From a virus: a stretch of 52,589 bases of DNA. The position numbers were made by a program, and so were the translations under genes. Each line of letters opens with the position of its first letter. Within the stretch, counting starts at the first letter, position 1. The notes below the pieces were generated by a model. That model made no database searches, was not told where the DNA came from, and saw only the letters and a list, made by a program, of their open reading frames with translations. This document shows positions 1 through 52,589 of the stretch, one piece after another. The stretch lies in the IMG/VR virus record IMGVR_UViG_3300005617_000012, positions 1 to 52,589 of that record; one strand, 5' to 3'.

Positions 1-366
1 GGGGAAGCAGTCATGTCGTGGCGCGGGGAAGCAGTCATGTCGAGGCGCGGGAAAGCAGTCATGTCGAGGCGCGGGAAAGCAGTCATGTCGAGGCGTGGGG
101 AAGCAGTCATGTCGTGGCGTGGGAAAGCAGTCATGTCGTGGCGCGGGGAAGCAGTCATGTCGTGGCGCGGGGAAGCAGTCATGTCGAGGCGCGGGAAAGC
201 AGTCATGTCGAGGCGTGGGAAAGCAGTCATGTCGAGGCGTGGGGAAGCAGTCATGTCGTGGCGCGGGAAAGCAGTCATGTCGAGGCGTGGGAAAGCAGTC
301 ATGTCGAGGCGTGGGAAAGCAGTCATGTCGAGGCGTGGGGAAGCAGTCATGTCGTGGCGTGGGGAT
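1..366. repeat. 24-bp tandem repeat array, left contig end
   Basis: Fifteen copies of a 24-bp unit (ggggaagcagtcatgtcgtg plus gcgc) run head to tail from base 1; the core gtcatgtcg recurs every 24 bases from position 10 to 346. Copies differ only at three positions (A/T, C/T and G/A). The unit length is a multiple of three and the array is coding: in the frame of the downstream gene it reads SSHV(V/E)A(R/W)(G/E). The same array occurs at the right contig end, so the contig was broken inside it. True copy number is unknown because short-read assembly collapses such arrays. Confidence 0.97.
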
Positions 367-875
367 CGGTAACTGTTGCCGTCCAATCCGATTATTCAAT
401 CATAACTCTTTTCGCATTCGCTATTGCCATTGCTTCCTTCGTTAAGAACATCACCAAAAAAAGCAAAACCTGCTCTGTTGTAAAAATCCCGCCCGCCGAA
501 TGGACGGTTAAAGGGTGGCTCGAAAGACAAGGGATCGAAGCGAAGAATAAACTCGTCACTATCTTCAAGCGCGTTTCAATCGATTTCAAGACGCAAGAAG
601 GAACTCCCAATGAAACTTTATGGTCAGTTGGGCTGATTGTCGAGCACAAGGATTGGAATCCCACAAATCAAGAATGCGGCCCTGGCAAGTTCCACGCATG
701 CGGACGGCCTTACTTCTGCGACGAGTTTCGCGATAAGAAAGGTGATCGCTACATTGCGATCCAAGTAGCGGTCAAAGACCTTCACGCTTGGGAGAATCCT
801 GGTTATCCCAATAAAATCGCATTCCGTTCCTGTAAAGTTCTTCACGAGTGCAACCGTTTCGGGGAGAAACTGTGA
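3..875 (+). CDS. Octapeptide-repeat protein, C-terminal part (gene split by contig ends)
   Basis: This reading frame is open from the left contig edge. It begins with about 15 copies of the octapeptide SSHV(V/E)A(R/W)(G/E), then a hydrophobic stretch (ITLFAFAIAIASFV) followed by a basic segment, then a roughly 140-residue C-terminal domain with the motif GKFHACGRPYFCDEF. That domain resembles the DUF7666 group of phage proteins; I am only moderately sure. No ATG, GTG or TTG lies between the repeats and the conserved domain, so the start must be in or before the repeats; the natural start is at 52302. Eight-residue repeats of this kind probably fold as a beta-solenoid (inference). The stop overlaps the GTG of the macro-domain gene by 4 nt. 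Joined across the ends with one missing base the protein would be about 387 residues, or longer if repeats were collapsed. Function unknown. Confidence 0.8.
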   Translation, partial: GSSHVVARGSSHVEARESSHVEARESSHVEAWGSSHVVAWESSHVVARGSSHVVARGSSHVEARESSHVEAWESSHVEAWGSSHVVARESSHVEAWESSHVEAWESSHVEAWGSSHVVAWGSVTVAVQSDYSIITLFAFAIAIASFVKNITKKSKTCSVVKIPPAEWTVKGWLERQGIEAKNKLVTIFKRVSIDFKTQEGTPNETLWSVGLIVEHKDWNPTNQECGPGKFHACGRPYFCDEFRDKKGDRYIAIQVAVKDLHAWENPGYPNKIAFRSCKVLHECNRFGEKL

Positions 876-1303
876 AAATCATCACCGGCAGCCTCCTAGA
901 TCAAAAAGGCATTCTTTGCCATCAGGTCAATCTCAGGGGCATAATGGGCGCGGGCCTCGCGTTGCAGATTCGTCAGAAGTGGCCATCGGCGCATGATGAC
1001 TATGTGCGGTATTGTCGCGAGGGCGCGAAGCTGGGCGACGTGCTATTTTCGATTGTGAATGATGACCAAATCGTTGCGCATTGCTTCGGACAATCGGAAA
1101 TATCGCGCGATCATTGTGTGACGGCATACGAATTCTATCCTGAGATTCTGAAAACGGTTGAGGACTATTCAGCCGGGAGCGACTCGCCGGTCTTCATTCC
1201 GCACGGGATCGGCTGCGGGATTGCGTCTGGAAATTGGGGAGTAATGCTTCCTTTGTTGGAAAAACACTGTGCCTCGGCTACTCTAGTAAACTATGAATAT
1301 TAA
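872..1303 (+). CDS. Macro-domain (ADP-ribose-binding) protein
   Basis: This 143-residue protein is a stand-alone macro domain, a fold that binds ADP-ribose and often hydrolyses ADP-ribose derivatives such as ADP-ribosyl esters or ADP-ribose 1''-phosphate. Visible motifs are ILCHQVN near residue 14, the ligand loop GIMGAGLA at about 23-30, and IPHGIGCGIASGNWG at about 109-123, the pattern of the TARG1/ALC1-like branch. The chosen start is GTG at 872: it overlaps the TGA of the repeat-protein gene in a GTGA junction and has a GGGGAG ribosome site 5 nt upstream. The end overlaps the next gene. In phages such enzymes could reverse defensive ADP-ribosylation or recycle NAD breakdown products; which applies here is inference. 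Confidence 0.88.
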   Translation: MKIITGSLLDQKGILCHQVNLRGIMGAGLALQIRQKWPSAHDDYVRYCREGAKLGDVLFSIVNDDQIVAHCFGQSEISRDHCVTAYEFYPEILKTVEDYSAGSDSPVFIPHGIGCGIASGNWGVMLPLLEKHCASATLVNYEY

Positions 1304-1802
1304 TCAATATGGGCGTGACCCCGTTACTCGTTTCTGGAACAAGGTGGACAAATCTGAAGCTAGTGGCTGCTGGCTTTGGAAAGGAGCCAAGAACTTAAAG
1401 GGGTATGGCCATCTCAGTGTTTCAAAAAAGAGATGGAAGGCTCACCGCTACTCTTGGGTGCTTTCCTTCGGAGATATTCCAGAGGGAAGCGGCCACCACG
1501 GCACTTGCGTCTGTCATCGTTGCGACAATCCTTCGTGCGTAAACCCCTCTCACCTTTTCCTTGGAACGGTAGAAGAGAACAACAAAGATATGGTCGAGAA
1601 AGGACGCAAGGCCATCCAATTTGGAGAAGAGGCTTCACGCGCAAAGTTAAATGTCCCCCAGATTAGACTAGCGATGAGGTGCCACAAGCTAGGAGTAAGA
1701 ACAGTTTTTCTAACAAAAGTTTGGAAAATGGATCGAGGTACTTTCTACAAAATAGCACAGGGCAAATCTTGGAAGTATGTTTCGCTTGAGGAATCCAAAT
1801 GA
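1293..1802 (+). CDS. HNH homing-type endonuclease
   Basis: The 169-residue protein has the layout of small phage HNH_3-type nucleases: an N-terminal FWNKVDK segment, CWLWKG, a histidine-rich middle, and the zinc-binding and catalytic core CHRCDNPSCVNPSHL near residues 75-90 followed by FLGT. The C-terminal 60 residues look like a helical DNA-binding module. Such enzymes nick or cut DNA and often spread as free-standing homing genes. The ATG overlaps the end of the macro gene by 11 nt and its TGA overlaps the next start in an ATGA junction, so it sits inside the rightward operon. Confidence 0.88.
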   Translation: MNINQYGRDPVTRFWNKVDKSEASGCWLWKGAKNLKGYGHLSVSKKRWKAHRYSWVLSFGDIPEGSGHHGTCVCHRCDNPSCVNPSHLFLGTVEENNKDMVEKGRKAIQFGEEASRAKLNVPQIRLAMRCHKLGVRTVFLTKVWKMDRGTFYKIAQGKSWKYVSLEESK

Positions 1803-3776: not shown

Positions 3777-5066
3777 TTACCAAATAACTTCCTGGCTGCC
3801 GCTGGCTAAAATAGATGCGCTGCCCGTACCGCTAATGGATGAGCGAATCCGTACCCATTTACCGGCAGGTATCATCCAACTCAAAGGAACGGTGCTGCCT
3901 TGAATACTTTGCAAGACAACCGCTAGCGAAAGGCTTTGAGTATTACTAACGCTCATTAGCGTAGTCCAGTCGCTTGGAGTTGTTGAGTTCGTGTTAGCGG
4001 TTTCCAGATAAACCAAGACAGACGCAGGGCCGCTAATGCTCGCTGTGGTTGATAAACTAACCGGATATGTCACCGAACAAGGGCGTGTGGAACTAACTTG
4101 GAATCCCGTAGAAGATGTGGTGGTGACAATAGACCTAACTACTCCATCATTAATCGTTGGAGAAGGTATATCTGCGCTGACTAATGATCTAAAAACGGGG
4201 ATTGCAGACGATCCTGTAGTTGGCCCACAAAAAATAGTGTTAGCTGTTTGCGTGGCCAAGGTGCCTGTAAGCGTGCCCGCAGTAGTCACAGGTGAACCGG
4301 TAACGGTAAAGATGGAAGGAAGGCTCAAGGCCGCGCTTGTAACGGTTCCGGAACCAAGGCCAGTAACGGAAAAGTTCAAATTAGGATAGGTTCCTGTAAT
4401 GGACACATTTGAACCTTGAGTAGGTGAGAATTGGGCCGGGATCGTTGGCTTACCACTTAAGTCAGAATACGCACCACTAGTGGCCACCGTTGCCAAAGAA
4501 GGCTTGCCCGAAAGATCGGTATAAGCCCCAGACGTAGCTACAGTAGCGAGAGAGGGTGCTCCTGTAAGCTTGGAATAAGCCAAAGCAGTAATCCATGTCG
4601 GGTTGGCATAAGTACCAGAAGTTAGGACAATAGGATCAGAAATGCCATATCCTGCCAAAGTAGTTGGTGTAGACGTGATACGACTCCATGCCACCGTTCC
4701 GGTAGATGTCTGGGCATCTGTAATTCCATAGCCAACCAAGGTTGATGGCGTTTCGGTAATGCTTGACCAAGCCAGCGAGGTAACCGGAGATGAGACAGAA
4801 ATGGTTCCATCGCCCGAAATTGTTACATTAGCACCCTGTTTTACGCCTCCTAAAGCTGCGCCCGTGGCTACTGGCAAAATATAACCAGTCTGGGCTTTGA
4901 TGTCGCCAATGGTAATGGGCTGCGAATGCACGCTTGGTGCAGGATCCCATAAGGTGAGGCGGTAACTATCGTCAATAGCCAAAAGTTTTGCGCCTAGAAT
5001 CAGAAATCCCAAGAGACCTAATGCTCCCAAGACAAGTAAGAAAGTTTTATATTGCTTGAAGATCAT
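3777..5066 (-). CDS. Tail-fibre-like protein with N-terminal membrane helix
   Basis: The 429-residue protein begins with a hydrophobic segment (FLLVLGALGLLGFLILGA). The rest is Gly/Ser/Thr-rich and low in charge, typical of fibre shafts. It contains the pattern LPVATGAALGGVKQGANVTI, shared with the neighbouring fibre protein, and repeated units of the type TPSTLVGYGITDAQ and ATVATSGAYTDLSGKPSL that occur in many phage fibres. The start at 5066 gives an ATGA overlap with the upstream fibre gene; an ATG six codons earlier (5084) is possible. A membrane helix is unusual for a tail fibre: it may be a membrane-tethered relative, or the segment may be a hydrophobic attachment tip. Confidence 0.75.
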   Translation of the reverse strand: MIFKQYKTFLLVLGALGLLGFLILGAKLLAIDDSYRLTLWDPAPSVHSQPITIGDIKAQTGYILPVATGAALGGVKQGANVTISGDGTISVSSPVTSLAWSSITETPSTLVGYGITDAQTSTGTVAWSRITSTPTTLAGYGISDPIVLTSGTYANPTWITALAYSKLTGAPSLATVATSGAYTDLSGKPSLATVATSGAYSDLSGKPTIPAQFSPTQGSNVSITGTYPNLNFSVTGLGSGTVTSAALSLPSIFTVTGSPVTTAGTLTGTLATQTANTIFCGPTTGSSAIPVFRSLVSADIPSPTINDGVVRSIVTTTSSTGFQVSSTRPCSVTYPVSLSTTASISGPASVLVYLETANTNSTTPSDWTTLMSVSNTQSLSLAVVLQSIQGSTVPLSWMIPAGKWVRIRSSISGTGSASILASGSQEVIW

Positions 5067-5794
5067 TGGTAATAGGGAATCCACGAGGGAACGCCGCTAA
5101 CTATAGTTGGAACCCAACCCACGGGCGTTACGGGATTAGACGGCACCGTGGAATCGTCTTTCGCGATTACCAAAGGATTTCCTAAATTGGTCAAGACTCC
5201 AGATGAGTTCATAATTAAGCTGCCGTTGGGAGCGGTTGAGCTCAGTCGAACTGGCCCCGAGTTATTAACATTTCCGATGACAAAATCGCCTGTTGCATTC
5301 TCGTTTGAAAAAAACCAAAAGGCAGTTGTTGTAGCAAACATGATAAAGGAAGCTCCTCCAAGATCAGTTTGCTCATGAATTTCAAGCTGATTATTTACAT
5401 TTGCAGTATAGATGCTTAAGGCTGTATTAGTTGGAAGTTGCCATGCGGTTAGGACTGAGGCGTCGGGGGGGGGGCTGACCGACACGGCAGGATTAGCAGG
5501 ATCGGTAATATCTACCGCAATTGCAGTTCCAGCAACCACACTATCTACCGTTCCGGTTCCTGGAGGCGCAACCGAAAGCACTCCGCTTGCATCAATGGTC
5601 ACATTGTCGCCCTGCTTGACGCCGCCAAGAACGGTGGTCGTCGCCACCGGCAAGACATAACCCCCGCCTCCACCGCCGCCAGAACTAGGAGTGATTACCA
5701 ATTGACCGCCATTCGTAAGCGTAAGCGTGGCAACAGGGACAAATGTCCCGTTCACCATCGCATAAAGAATATTGGGAAATTGGTTAGTGACCAT
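5063..5794 (-). CDS. Tail-fibre / receptor-binding-like protein
   Basis: The 243-residue protein has a poly-glycine linker after residue 38, then LPVATTTVLGGVKQGDNVTI, the same shaft-entry motif as in the next gene. A beta-rich C-terminal part (WQLPTNTALSIYTANVNNQ) probably forms a head domain. It is likely a structural fibre or receptor-binding subunit. The AT-rich leader TAAATTTTATGG at its start matches the leaders of the small gene at 30627 and, less exactly, the capsid gene, suggesting common late translation control. Confidence 0.75.
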   Translation of the reverse strand: MVTNQFPNILYAMVNGTFVPVATLTLTNGGQLVITPSSGGGGGGGYVLPVATTTVLGGVKQGDNVTIDASGVLSVAPPGTGTVDSVVAGTAIAVDITDPANPAVSVSPPPDASVLTAWQLPTNTALSIYTANVNNQLEIHEQTDLGGASFIMFATTTAFWFFSNENATGDFVIGNVNNSGPVRLSSTAPNGSLIMNSSGVLTNLGNPLVIAKDDSTVPSNPVTPVGWVPTIVSGVPSWIPYYQ

Positions 5795-52301: not shown

Positions 52302-52589
52302 ATGAAATCAATTACTGTTCGCAATCAGAAAGAGTGGAACGCACTACCTAAAGCATTTTCCGAAATAACGATTATTCGGATTGAGTCCGATGCCAATGTT
52401 TGGCTTTCGATTTCGGGTAAACCGGAATCGTCTTGCGTCGTGGCGCGGGGAAGCAGTCATGTCGTGGCGCGGGGAAGCAGTCATGTCGAGGCGTGGGGAA
52501 GCAGTCATGTCGTGGCGCGGGGAAGCAGTCATGTCGTGGCGCGGGGAAGCAGTCATGTCGTGGCGCGGGGAAGCAGTCATGTCGAGGCG
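52302..52589 (+). CDS. Octapeptide-repeat protein, N-terminal part (open at contig end)
   Basis: ATG 52302 opens a frame that has no stop before the contig end. It encodes a 45-residue cap domain (VRNQKEWNALPKAFSEITII; SDANVWLSISGKPESS) and then six octapeptides of the form SSHV(V/E)A(R/W)G. The frame matches exactly the frame that continues at base 3 into the C-terminal part ending at 875; one base is missing at the junction. It is therefore the first part of the same gene. No other protein would be encoded on this strand here. The cap and repeat arrangement is typical of beta-solenoid proteins that begin with a folded cap (inference). Confidence 0.85.
   Translation, partial: MKSITVRNQKEWNALPKAFSEITIIRIESDANVWLSISGKPESSCVVARGSSHVVARGSSHVEAWGSSHVVARGSSHVVARGSSHVVARGSSHVEA
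52437..52589. repeat. 24-bp tandem repeat array, right contig end
   Basis: Six copies of the same 24-bp unit as at the left end; gtcatgtcg occurs every 24 bases from 52456 to 52576. The contig stops after gaggcg. Joining this end to base 1 leaves the repeat one base short (a C or T), consistent with an assembly cut rather than a natural end. Confidence 0.97.

Follow-up and report, generated by a model that had tools for sequence, protein, structure and literature searches.

An octapeptide-repeat phage gene with three variable residues per unit, a putative rIIB-type domain and an overlapping macro-domain gene

Introduction

The viral record IMGVR_UViG_3300005617_000012, analyzed here over its full 52,589 nucleotides (the window), begins inside a tandem array, in a gene that overlaps a small macro-domain gene. 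What does such an array encode, how does it vary, and does the macro gene belong to the same system? An earlier note on this DNA had proposed that the array protein and its neighbor are made together and could counteract ADP-ribosylating or NAD-depleting immunity.

Results

A repeat gene divided between the two contig ends

TRF detected a 24-bp tandem array at positions 1..363 (plus strand, 15.1 copies, 94% matches) and a second piece at 52437..52589 (plus strand, period 24, 6.4 copies, 96% matches). From the contig edge, frame 3 stays open as far as position 875 and encodes 15 octapeptides and, after them, a unique part (3..875, plus strand, 290 aa visible; PHROG 15773, E 7e-50), which bears out the variable octapeptide protein of the earlier note. 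The note had placed the two-gene feature at 3-1303; the protein is real, but only its C-terminal part is found there, since the gene starts at 52302. The 5' part (52302..52589, plus strand) is an ATG-start ORF of 96 aa, open at its 3' end, encoding an N-terminal cap (about 40 aa) and then six octapeptides that begin with a degenerate one; it runs off the right contig end. The cap is similar to the N-terminal ends of complete relatives, for example L008, L012 and L020. Most probably, the record represents a circular or permuted genome that was opened within the array. Joined directly, its two ends leave the reading frame off by one base, which implies the loss of one base or more and of some units.

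No frame of the 24-nt unit contains a stop codon, and an open frame by itself is therefore no proof. Frame 3 is the correct one because it leads into a C-terminal domain common to 49 other virus records (retrieved by searching for that domain), and because in this frame the 15 left-hand units differ from one another by nonsynonymous changes only. Frames 1 and 2 and the minus strand, which are open through the array too, were rejected, as only frame 3 enters the conserved domain. Among the 49 viral contigs, 26 end within the repeat gene. Searching a phage collection with the C-terminal part of the window protein gave no match at E 0.01, while the full L020 protein retrieved 33 records.

The AlphaFold2 model of 3-875 (pLDDT 91.5) predicts a beta-solenoid, with one strand per octapeptide, and a C-terminal domain. 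The stop codon of the repeat gene (TGA, 873-875) overlaps the possible GTG start of the macro gene at 872 (GTGA, 872..875, plus strand), exactly the junction that had been noted; a second in-frame GTG lies at 848. The macro gene (872..1303, plus strand) encodes a stand-alone, Poa1p/DarG-like protein of 143 aa, and its end is overlapped by an HNH endonuclease gene (1293..1802, plus strand; HNH_3, E 4e-9). The repeat and macro genes thus belong to a longer coupled string; the HNH gene is in the same string but probably lies outside the module.

Array variation is concentrated at three codons per unit

Three-site variation is the strongest feature of the repeat gene. The 15 units of the left-hand array vary only at codons 1, 6 and 8, with 20 nonsynonymous and 0 synonymous cells. 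We then counted 33 octapeptide arrays (389 units), leaving out the degenerate array of L003. Each of codons 1, 6 and 8 was polymorphic in 32 of the 33 arrays, with G/E, V/E and R/W, respectively, as the main residue alternatives; polymorphism at any of the remaining five codons was limited to between 1 and 5 arrays. Variant codons, mostly at intermediate frequency, were 126 nonsynonymous versus 3 synonymous, where the possible single changes numbered 1693 versus 589. Homogenization is imperfect, as indicated by 11 synonymous cells in L003 and two in the right-hand piece of the window. Eleven arrays of other kinds gave counts of 74 nonsynonymous and 12 synonymous. The array of phage Redi has three units only.

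When the sites were scored as two states (E or D versus the rest at site 1, E versus the rest at site 6, W versus the rest at site 8), all eight combinations were present, each in 25-77 of the 389 units, and their order along the array was weak. Autocorrelation along the arrays, calculated partly to find the units per coil, revealed no clear period (6 of 57 tests reached an absolute z of 2); the largest absolute value, 3.5, was between residue 1 and the residue 8 that follows in the next unit. Between arrays, shared residues were encoded by different codons in 1358 of 1905 comparisons, and the 33 arrays had 32 distinct cores; the three-site pattern thus persists despite divergence at silent sites. 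A DNA-level reading of the array, as iterons or binding sites, was rejected: relatives keep the protein pattern with other codons, and variation is almost only replacement.

Near-identical phages carry reshuffled arrays

Phages that are nearly identical elsewhere differ in their arrays. L011 and L013, 99.79% identical over 4704 bp, have at least 20 versus 8 units, and 8 of their 10 mismatches are located in the array. Between L034 and L042, all 8 mismatches within 4753 bp fall in the array, where linked GAT/GGC codon swaps point to unit exchange. The annotated "variable region 2" (VR2) of the Bordetella phages BPP-1, BMP-1 and BIP-1, for which we know of no explanation so far, is an array of the same kind. 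These phages have 0 mismatches in 729 + 642 flanking bases, and their arrays measure 13.75, 20.75 and 19.75 units, respectively, with a different unit make-up. Such reshuffling suggests that the array is a fast-changing recognition part.

The C-terminal domain is related to rIIB and may have an ADP-ribosyltransferase-like fold

The rIIB locus of phage T4 has been studied for some 70 years; its intracellular product acts together with RIIA and is known for rescuing T4 from Rex exclusion. The hhalign comparison of the C-terminal domain of the window family (495..872, plus strand) with ten rIIB proteins gave Prob 93.6 and E 2.2e-7 over 113 columns, versus Prob 0.2 and E 0.37 for a macro control; these E-values are single-pair and so optimistic. 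T4 rIIB alone reached only Prob 13 (E 0.002) against the family, and rIIB only Prob 9 against the Bbp36-type domain of BPP-1. Among 20 viral Foldseek matches at E 0.001 or better, six are named RIIB and four lysis inhibitor, protector or RIIA-RIIB. Judged by these profiles and names, the window domain is distantly homologous to the C-terminal domain of rIIB. T4 RIIB carries the same Lys, His and Lys, but has an HTH-like N-terminal region and no octapeptide array, where the window protein has a solenoid cap and array. Membership of the whole rIIB family does not extend to the window protein, which has no HTH-like N-terminus and whose downstream neighbors are macro, then HNH, not RIIA. PMC7824862 treats rIIB as a transcription factor.

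The model of the isolated domain (pLDDT 95.9, pTM 0.88) aligned in VIA-align with KptA/Tpt1, TreTu, Arr and CNFy D4-5 at Z 5.0-6.4, values below the 8 under which, as the tool warns, similarity may reflect a common arrangement; its lists cannot exclude other folds. Going by recognized names, we take all of the best 50 rows except the top one (2aua, of unknown function) to have the ADP-ribosyltransferase (ART) fold. Foldseek against the PDB gave no match for the domain model at E 0.001, and neither did a PDB sequence search with the domain profile. Together, the models are no more than suggestive of an ART-like fold. Three residues, K25, H67 and K107 (segment numbering), are kept in 64/64 sequences of three groups (49/49 + 10/10 + 5/5). 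ART catalytic sets are H-Y-E, R-S-E or of the Tpt1 type, and the conserved Lys-His-Lys differs from the first two triads.

The proposed likeness to DUF7666 (PF24703) is present, but the window protein scored 23.7 bits and the domain alone 26.1, both below the curated cut-off of 27. DUF7666 matched 16 of 50 members at E 0.01, the window included, and a neighbor gene in L027 exceeded the cut-off (33.5 bits). A literature search returned nothing on DUF7666.

A macro or macro-like neighbor recurs in a minority of relatives

The claim of a stand-alone macro-domain protein held: the protein matched phrog_335 (E 1.4e-19) and, in the PDB, 2fg1 (best, E 3.6e-8) and 5m31, an Appr-1-p processing domain protein (E 1.7e-4). 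Since Pfam PF01661 gave 15 bits, under its cut-off of 22, the assignment rests on phrog_335 and the solved macro-domain proteins. Like DarG and the phage macro proteins of phrog_335, it is a macro homologue with HQxN..G.MGAG and IGCG..GGDW-like loops; on the DarG model NF048014 it scored 36.6 bits, well under the cut-off of 250.

Proteins of the phrog_335 type are found in 256 of 50,697 phage records at E 0.001, and no close relatives of the window macro protein were confirmed among viral contigs. The pairing postulated by the earlier note was only partly recovered. Of 50 repeat-gene records, window included, 9 matched phrog_335 with an E-value of 0.01 or lower, and in five of these (4 lineages) the match was no more than 1 kb from the repeat gene, but for most relatives no macro neighbor was found, 41 records (some of them fragments) having no such match. 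The copy in L025 covers only the N-terminal third of the domain and is fused to DUF551. Another family, phrog_2072, aligns with macro domains and overlaps the repeat gene in L015, ctHz2215 and BPP-1. By itself, the L015 partner aligned weakly with macro domains (E 0.001); its family reached E 4.2e-6 against the macro profile, carried by four rows, the fifth being a 3-residue fragment in the wrong frame. An overlapping gene in L031 was considered as macro-like and left uncounted, with a weak hhalign result (E 0.0012, single sequence) and no family, PDB or phage match. Macro or macro-like genes of two families thus overlap the repeat gene stop-to-start in separate lineages, and such a neighbor recurs in a minority of relatives. 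Inspection of seven Mycobacterium and Gordonia phages showed a next gene annotated as DUF732 or hypothetical. Across annotated phages, the repeat gene is located among repressor, excisionase, WhiB, RecE/RecT and hypothetical genes, not among structural ones.

Discussion

Of the systems compared, Bbp36/VR2 and Bbp37 of BPP-1 share with the window a DUF7666-like domain, a homogeneous 24-bp array, fixed variable codons and an overlapping macro-like gene. A profile made of two sequences, Bbp36 and the L027 neighbor, aligned in hhalign with five phage homologues at Prob 97.7 and with the window family at 66.9. The Bbp36 domain is N-terminal, whereas that of the window protein is C-terminal; its units read GTATAG plus YR, ES or NY, and its partner belongs to phrog_2072 instead of phrog_335. 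Among the papers listed, we found no occurrence of bbp36 and no related work on phage octapeptide-repeat solenoids; the listed titles on repeat arrays included no phage case.

The variation pattern also resembles that of the fungal HNWD NLRs het-d and het-e, with their WD40 repeats of high internal conservation. As described in PMC12222747, those genes have near-identical repeats that evolve in concert, diversifying selection on a few hypervariable codons, and polymorphism in unit number; they are fungal and form beta-propellers on NOD-like receptors, and no rIIB-type or macro part is described there. The phage arrays counted here likewise consist of near-identical units with few hypervariable, replacement-only codons. 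A WD40 propeller on an NLR is absent from the window, where the model is a beta-solenoid and no such match was among the Pfam families listed.

The models suggest a solenoid joined to an ART-like domain, and the reading that we prefer, tentatively and with a probability of about 0.4, is a binding solenoid diversified by recombination, mounted on an ART-like effector and accompanied by a macro protein acting on ADP-ribose. Recombination or slippage between units would keep the array homogeneous, while diversifying selection would maintain alternative residues at positions 1, 6 and 8, which the strand pattern would place at the surface. Unit reshuffling could then alter array length and residue pattern within very short times. 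The solenoid may bind a host or rival-phage factor through a surface that changes fast, and so position the rIIB/DUF7666-type domain, possibly a catalytic one, and the co-made macro protein may bind or hydrolyze the ADP-ribose product or adduct. The setting would be phage-host or phage-phage conflict, as for T4 rIIB. The counter-defense idea of the earlier note gains from this homology, given the rescue of T4 from Rex exclusion. The literature on macro domains and counter-defense includes PMC9503650 and PMC11481870; the part of PMC9503650 available contains no mention of rIIB. A more specific version is rather speculative: this would be a widespread, undescribed phage system whose solenoid, driven by recombination and coded combinatorially by three mostly two-state residues per octapeptide, directs an rIIB-type ART-like effector to changing targets, with the macro protein as eraser or immunity factor, T4 rIIB in the same class and VR2 as the best laboratory example.

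An alternative that we regard as unlikely, though a serious one, is that the domain binds but does not catalyze, on an ART-like scaffold within a variable structural or docking protein, the macro gene being an ordinary accessory neighbor. The many records that lack a phrog_335 match (some being fragments), the absence of a recognized canonical ART triad and the setting among small hypothetical and DUF732 genes in the Mycobacterium and Gordonia phages all fit it; the invariant Lys-His-Lys, which resembles an active site, and the stop-to-start overlap by two macro or macro-like families in separate lineages speak against it. That the solenoid is instead a virion or surface adhesin, or an ice-binding-like protein whose variation changes particle sticking without NAD+ chemistry, appears improbable. 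In alignments its model does come closest to adhesin beta-helices (TibA, Z 16.2; antigen 43, Z 14.1), and the annotation of a Bbp36-type relative, from Burkholderia phage Mica, reads "ice nucleation protein", but in the annotated phages the gene does not sit among structural genes, and rIIB is intracellular.

The variation itself could be neutral, slippage and unequal exchange making and homogenizing units in which three codons are merely tolerated. Arrays differ mostly by whole units and the linked codon swaps are a shuffling of existing units, as this would predict; yet silent changes would then be expected, against the three seen beside 126 amino-acid-changing ones, the same codons vary at mostly intermediate frequency in arrays with diverged silent sites, and tolerance alone would not maintain both states in 32 of 33 arrays. 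We hold this to be improbable as well. Targeted mutagenesis, for example by a diversity-generating retroelement, is the least credible reading and very improbable. Such elements also focus protein diversification in phages, the variation here is extreme and confined to fixed sites, and one carrier, BPP-1, is the classic retroelement phage. They act by adenine mutagenesis, however, whereas the changes here are G/A, T/A, C/T, A/T, G/T or C/G depending on the array, the remaining adenines of the unit do not vary, and the linked two-base swaps fit recombination through unit exchange. A PF00078 reverse transcriptase was found in 1 of 50 records, which may be fragments, and none in the window.

Phages are known to diversify proteins by retroelements. 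In the arrays described here, change seems to come from the exchange of units, and variation stays confined to three fixed residues of each unit, in parallel with fungal self/non-self receptors. Because the arrays break assemblies, as in the contigs that end inside the gene, the class is easily missed. VR2 of BPP-1 is now tied to a gene class, and cultured carriers (Che8, Redi and Squirty of M. smegmatis, with the gene as 59, 44 and 51, respectively, and BPP-1) make it testable now. For rIIB, the link through its C-terminal domain would provide a testable hypothesis, namely ADP-ribose chemistry at K215, H257 and K295.

Variable residues fall mostly at three codons of otherwise nearly uniform arrays

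The 52,589-bp IMG/VR virus record carries the octapeptide-repeat gene in two parts. At the left end, frame 3 encodes 15 octapeptides (GSSHVVAR and variants), followed by 170 unique residues and a stop at 875. The start of the gene sits at the right end (ATG 52302), where a cap precedes six octapeptides, the first one degenerate. A tandem-repeat search found the 24-bp array at both ends (1-363 and 52437-52589) and no other repeats in the window. Because the array and the two parts of one gene occupy both ends, the contig was most likely broken inside the array, with at least one base and some units absent; the underlying genome is most likely circular or permuted and was opened there. Among related viral contigs, 26 of 49 end within the repeat gene. 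As read from the sequence, the macro-domain gene (872-1303) starts at a GTG within the stop of the repeat gene (GTGA overlap); its end is overlapped by an HNH gene, according to ORF coordinates and a profile match. Elsewhere in the window (3777-5084, minus strand), a 435-aa protein whose N terminus bears a hydrophobic segment and whose middle is repetitive (..TSGAYSDLSGKP..) matches a PHROG without assigned function and is perhaps a tail or fibre protein.

A search with the C-terminal part retrieved 5 loci and then, via an alignment, 49 viral and 6 MAG loci. This set includes some redundancy: L003 and L022 come from one viral contig, the MAG locus L052 equals L016, and L026 and L030 are identical. 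With the complete family protein of locus L020 as query, 33 phage records were found, 27 of them mycobacteriophages. Eight phages were examined: Che8 (gp59), Squirty (gp51), Redi (gp44), SkinnyPete (gp38), Frankie (gp59), ThetaBob (gp59), Gordonia phage Spooky (gp76) and ctHz2215. Complete members have the C-terminal domain in common, together with a cap, which in most of them reads MKxIIVxTQxELDALP..., and an array whose length ranges from 3 to at least 21 units. Locus L027 encodes tandem array proteins, an octapeptide protein (3-866) and then a DUF7666 protein with TMTGGYSA-type repeats (870-1673). The relative at L046 (1-777) has 22-residue repeats instead of octapeptides, with some silent variation.

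In the 15 left-hand units of the window, 21 of 24 bases are constant and three sites vary, with the two states about equally frequent at each: GGA/GAA (G/E), GTG/GAG (V/E) and CGG/TGG (R/W). The count across the family covered 33 arrays and 389 units, leaving out arrays of fewer than five units, the near-duplicates L013 and L034, other array kinds, the degenerate L003 (11 synonymous cells among 9 units) and the window's degenerate first unit. Codons 1, 6 and 8 were each polymorphic in 32 of the 33 arrays, against 3, 1, 5, 1 and 3 arrays for codons 2, 3, 4, 5 and 7, respectively. Variant codons were nonsynonymous in 126 cases and synonymous in 3, compared with 1693 and 589 possible single changes. 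All eight two-state combinations of the three sites were seen, 25-77 times each, and the order of states along arrays was weak. When shared residues were compared between arrays, the codons differed in 1358 of 1905 cases. Given the three synonymous variants inside arrays, silent sites are thus nearly fixed within arrays and diverged between them, while variation persists at the same three residues. Codons 1, 6 and 8 also vary in seven of the eight named phages, and Redi, with three units, varies at 6 and 8; codon 4 varies as well in seven of the eight, and none of the eight has more than one synonymous variant codon. Eleven additional arrays (2-36 units of 8, 9, 10 or 22 residues) contained 74 nonsynonymous variant codons and 12 synonymous ones, of which 5 came from L046.

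In a model of window 3-872 (pLDDT 91.5, pTM 0.64), each octapeptide forms one strand (residues 4-7), and structural alignment matches the solenoid to beta-helix adhesins (TibA, Z 16.2, rmsd 2.2, 165 residues). Variable residue 6 lies within the strand, and 8 and 1 lie in the turn. Since side chains alternate along a strand, the invariant V5 and A7 should face inward and residue 6 outward.

Arrays appear to change by exchange of units

Two near-identical phage loci, L011 and L013, share 99.79% identity over 4704 bp, yet carry at least 20 and 8 units, respectively, the latter counted from the apparent cap; 8 of their 10 mismatches lie inside the array, at codons 1, 6 and 8. Between L034 and L042, all 8 differing bases in 4753 fall in the array at these same codons. 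Single-base differences alone are uninformative; two of the L034/L042 exchanges replace the linked bases GAT/GGC together, which points to swapping of existing units. A retroelement is an unlikely source of the variation, since reverse transcriptase matches occurred in only one of 50 repeat-gene records.

Arrays also differ in length among Bordetella phages. The neighbour gene of locus L015 led to BPP-1 bbp37, which overlaps bbp36 (the pair at L094 277-1634; also L095 and L096), a DUF7666-like gene whose 24-bp array contains two or three types of unit. This array is the GenBank feature "variable region 2; VR2". It comprises 13.75 units in BPP-1, 20.75 in BMP-1 (one of them shortened) and 19.75 in BIP-1, with 0 mismatches over the 729 bases before and 642 after. 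Units vary solely in their two final codons, which encode YR or ES in all three phages and, in BIP-1, also NY. In a fourth isolate, vB_BbrP_003, the matches of the two genes lie 168 bp (7 x 24) nearer each other than in BPP-1.

The C-terminal domain is related to rIIB

Profile comparisons identify the window domain (495-872) as distantly homologous to the C-terminal domain of rIIB proteins, including T4 rIIB (L067 466-1404, minus strand; NC_000866). With hhalign, where each E-value refers to one single comparison, the window family aligned with ten rIIB proteins over 113 columns (Prob 93.6, E 2.2e-7); for T4 rIIB by itself the values were Prob 13 and E 0.002, and a macro control reached Prob 0.2. 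The N-terminal domain of Bbp36 is DUF7666-like: a profile of two sequences, Bbp36 and the protein of the second L027 array gene, matched five phage homologues (Prob 97.7, E 1.9e-12), the window family (Prob 66.9, E 5.3e-5) and, at Prob 9 only, the rIIB profile. Twenty viral Foldseek matches of the window model reached E 0.001 or better; 6 carry the name RIIB (E 6.8e-6 to 3.9e-4), 4 lysis inhibitor, protector or RIIA-RIIB, 1 DUF7666, and the remainder are unnamed or uncharacterised. Lys25, His67 and Lys107 of the domain segment correspond to T4 rIIB K215, H257 and K295 and are kept in 49/49 family members, 10/10 diverse rIIB proteins and 5/5 of Che8, Squirty, Redi, Spooky and ctHz2215; the two Bbp36-type sequences carry R, H and K.

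The AlphaFold2 domain model (pLDDT 95.9, pTM 0.88) aligned best with the uncharacterised protein 2aua (Z 6.7), followed by KptA/Tpt1 (6.4-5.4), TreTu/TreX toxins (6.4-5.5), Arr (6.0-5.0), CNFy domains 4-5 (5.0-4.9) and PARPs (4.8-4.2). Judging by the protein names we recognised, we take the matches that follow 2aua to be one fold class, ADP-ribosyltransferases (ART). The modelled fold is ART-like, a likeness that at Z below 8 falls short of proof. BFVD matches to the window model also include Q5UP99 (mimivirus L26) and ankyrin proteins of giant viruses, at E about 0.015-0.08; relatives of the domain may thus exist outside phages.

Macro-type neighbours recur

The apparent association of the repeat gene with a macro gene, proposed in the earlier note as a possible two-gene system, recurs yet is not general. 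The macro family phrog_335 matched in 9 of the 50 records, window included, and within 1 kb of the repeat gene in five: the window (GTGA overlap), L025 (761-1216, ATGA overlap; here just the N-terminal third of the macro domain is present, joined to a DUF551 part), L011 and L013 (0.3 kb downstream, one ORF in between) and L020 (0.6 kb upstream, other strand). The other matches lie 7 kb away in G024 and G028, records of one and the same locus, 17 kb away in G026 (containing one stop), and at the far contig end in G001 (weak, E 0.003). Reading the next genes of loci added the neighbours in L015 and L031, the latter macro-like weakly at most. The former belongs to phrog_2072, which aligned with the macro profile (Prob 86.8, E 4.2e-6) and overlaps the repeat gene in at least L015 (954-1376, ATGA), ctHz2215 (11 bp) and BPP-1 (4 bp). 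This is a common phage family (also bbp37 and N4 gp14-like proteins), and some relatives are annotated as ADP-ribosylglycohydrolase. In phage Zuri, one feature under a phrog_2072 match bears the name ssDNA thymidine ADP-ribosyltransferase family protein.

A proposed variable binding part for a putative effector

In the open-access literature searched, mostly by titles, no publication on DUF7666 was found and no description of the array, of bbp36 or of rIIB as an ART. According to a study on fungal HNWD receptors, homogeneous repeats, a few hypervariable replacement-only codons and changes in unit number mark a recognition surface (PMC12222747), and the phage arrays share these three features. 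This evolutionary mode is therefore already known from fungi. Together with the rIIB-type, ART-like domain and the macro neighbour, the HNWD-like signature makes it the most economical reading that the solenoid would act as a variable binding part directing an effector, and that the C-terminal domain would be this ADP-ribose-linked effector in phage conflicts. The counter-defence role suggested earlier is compatible with such a function.
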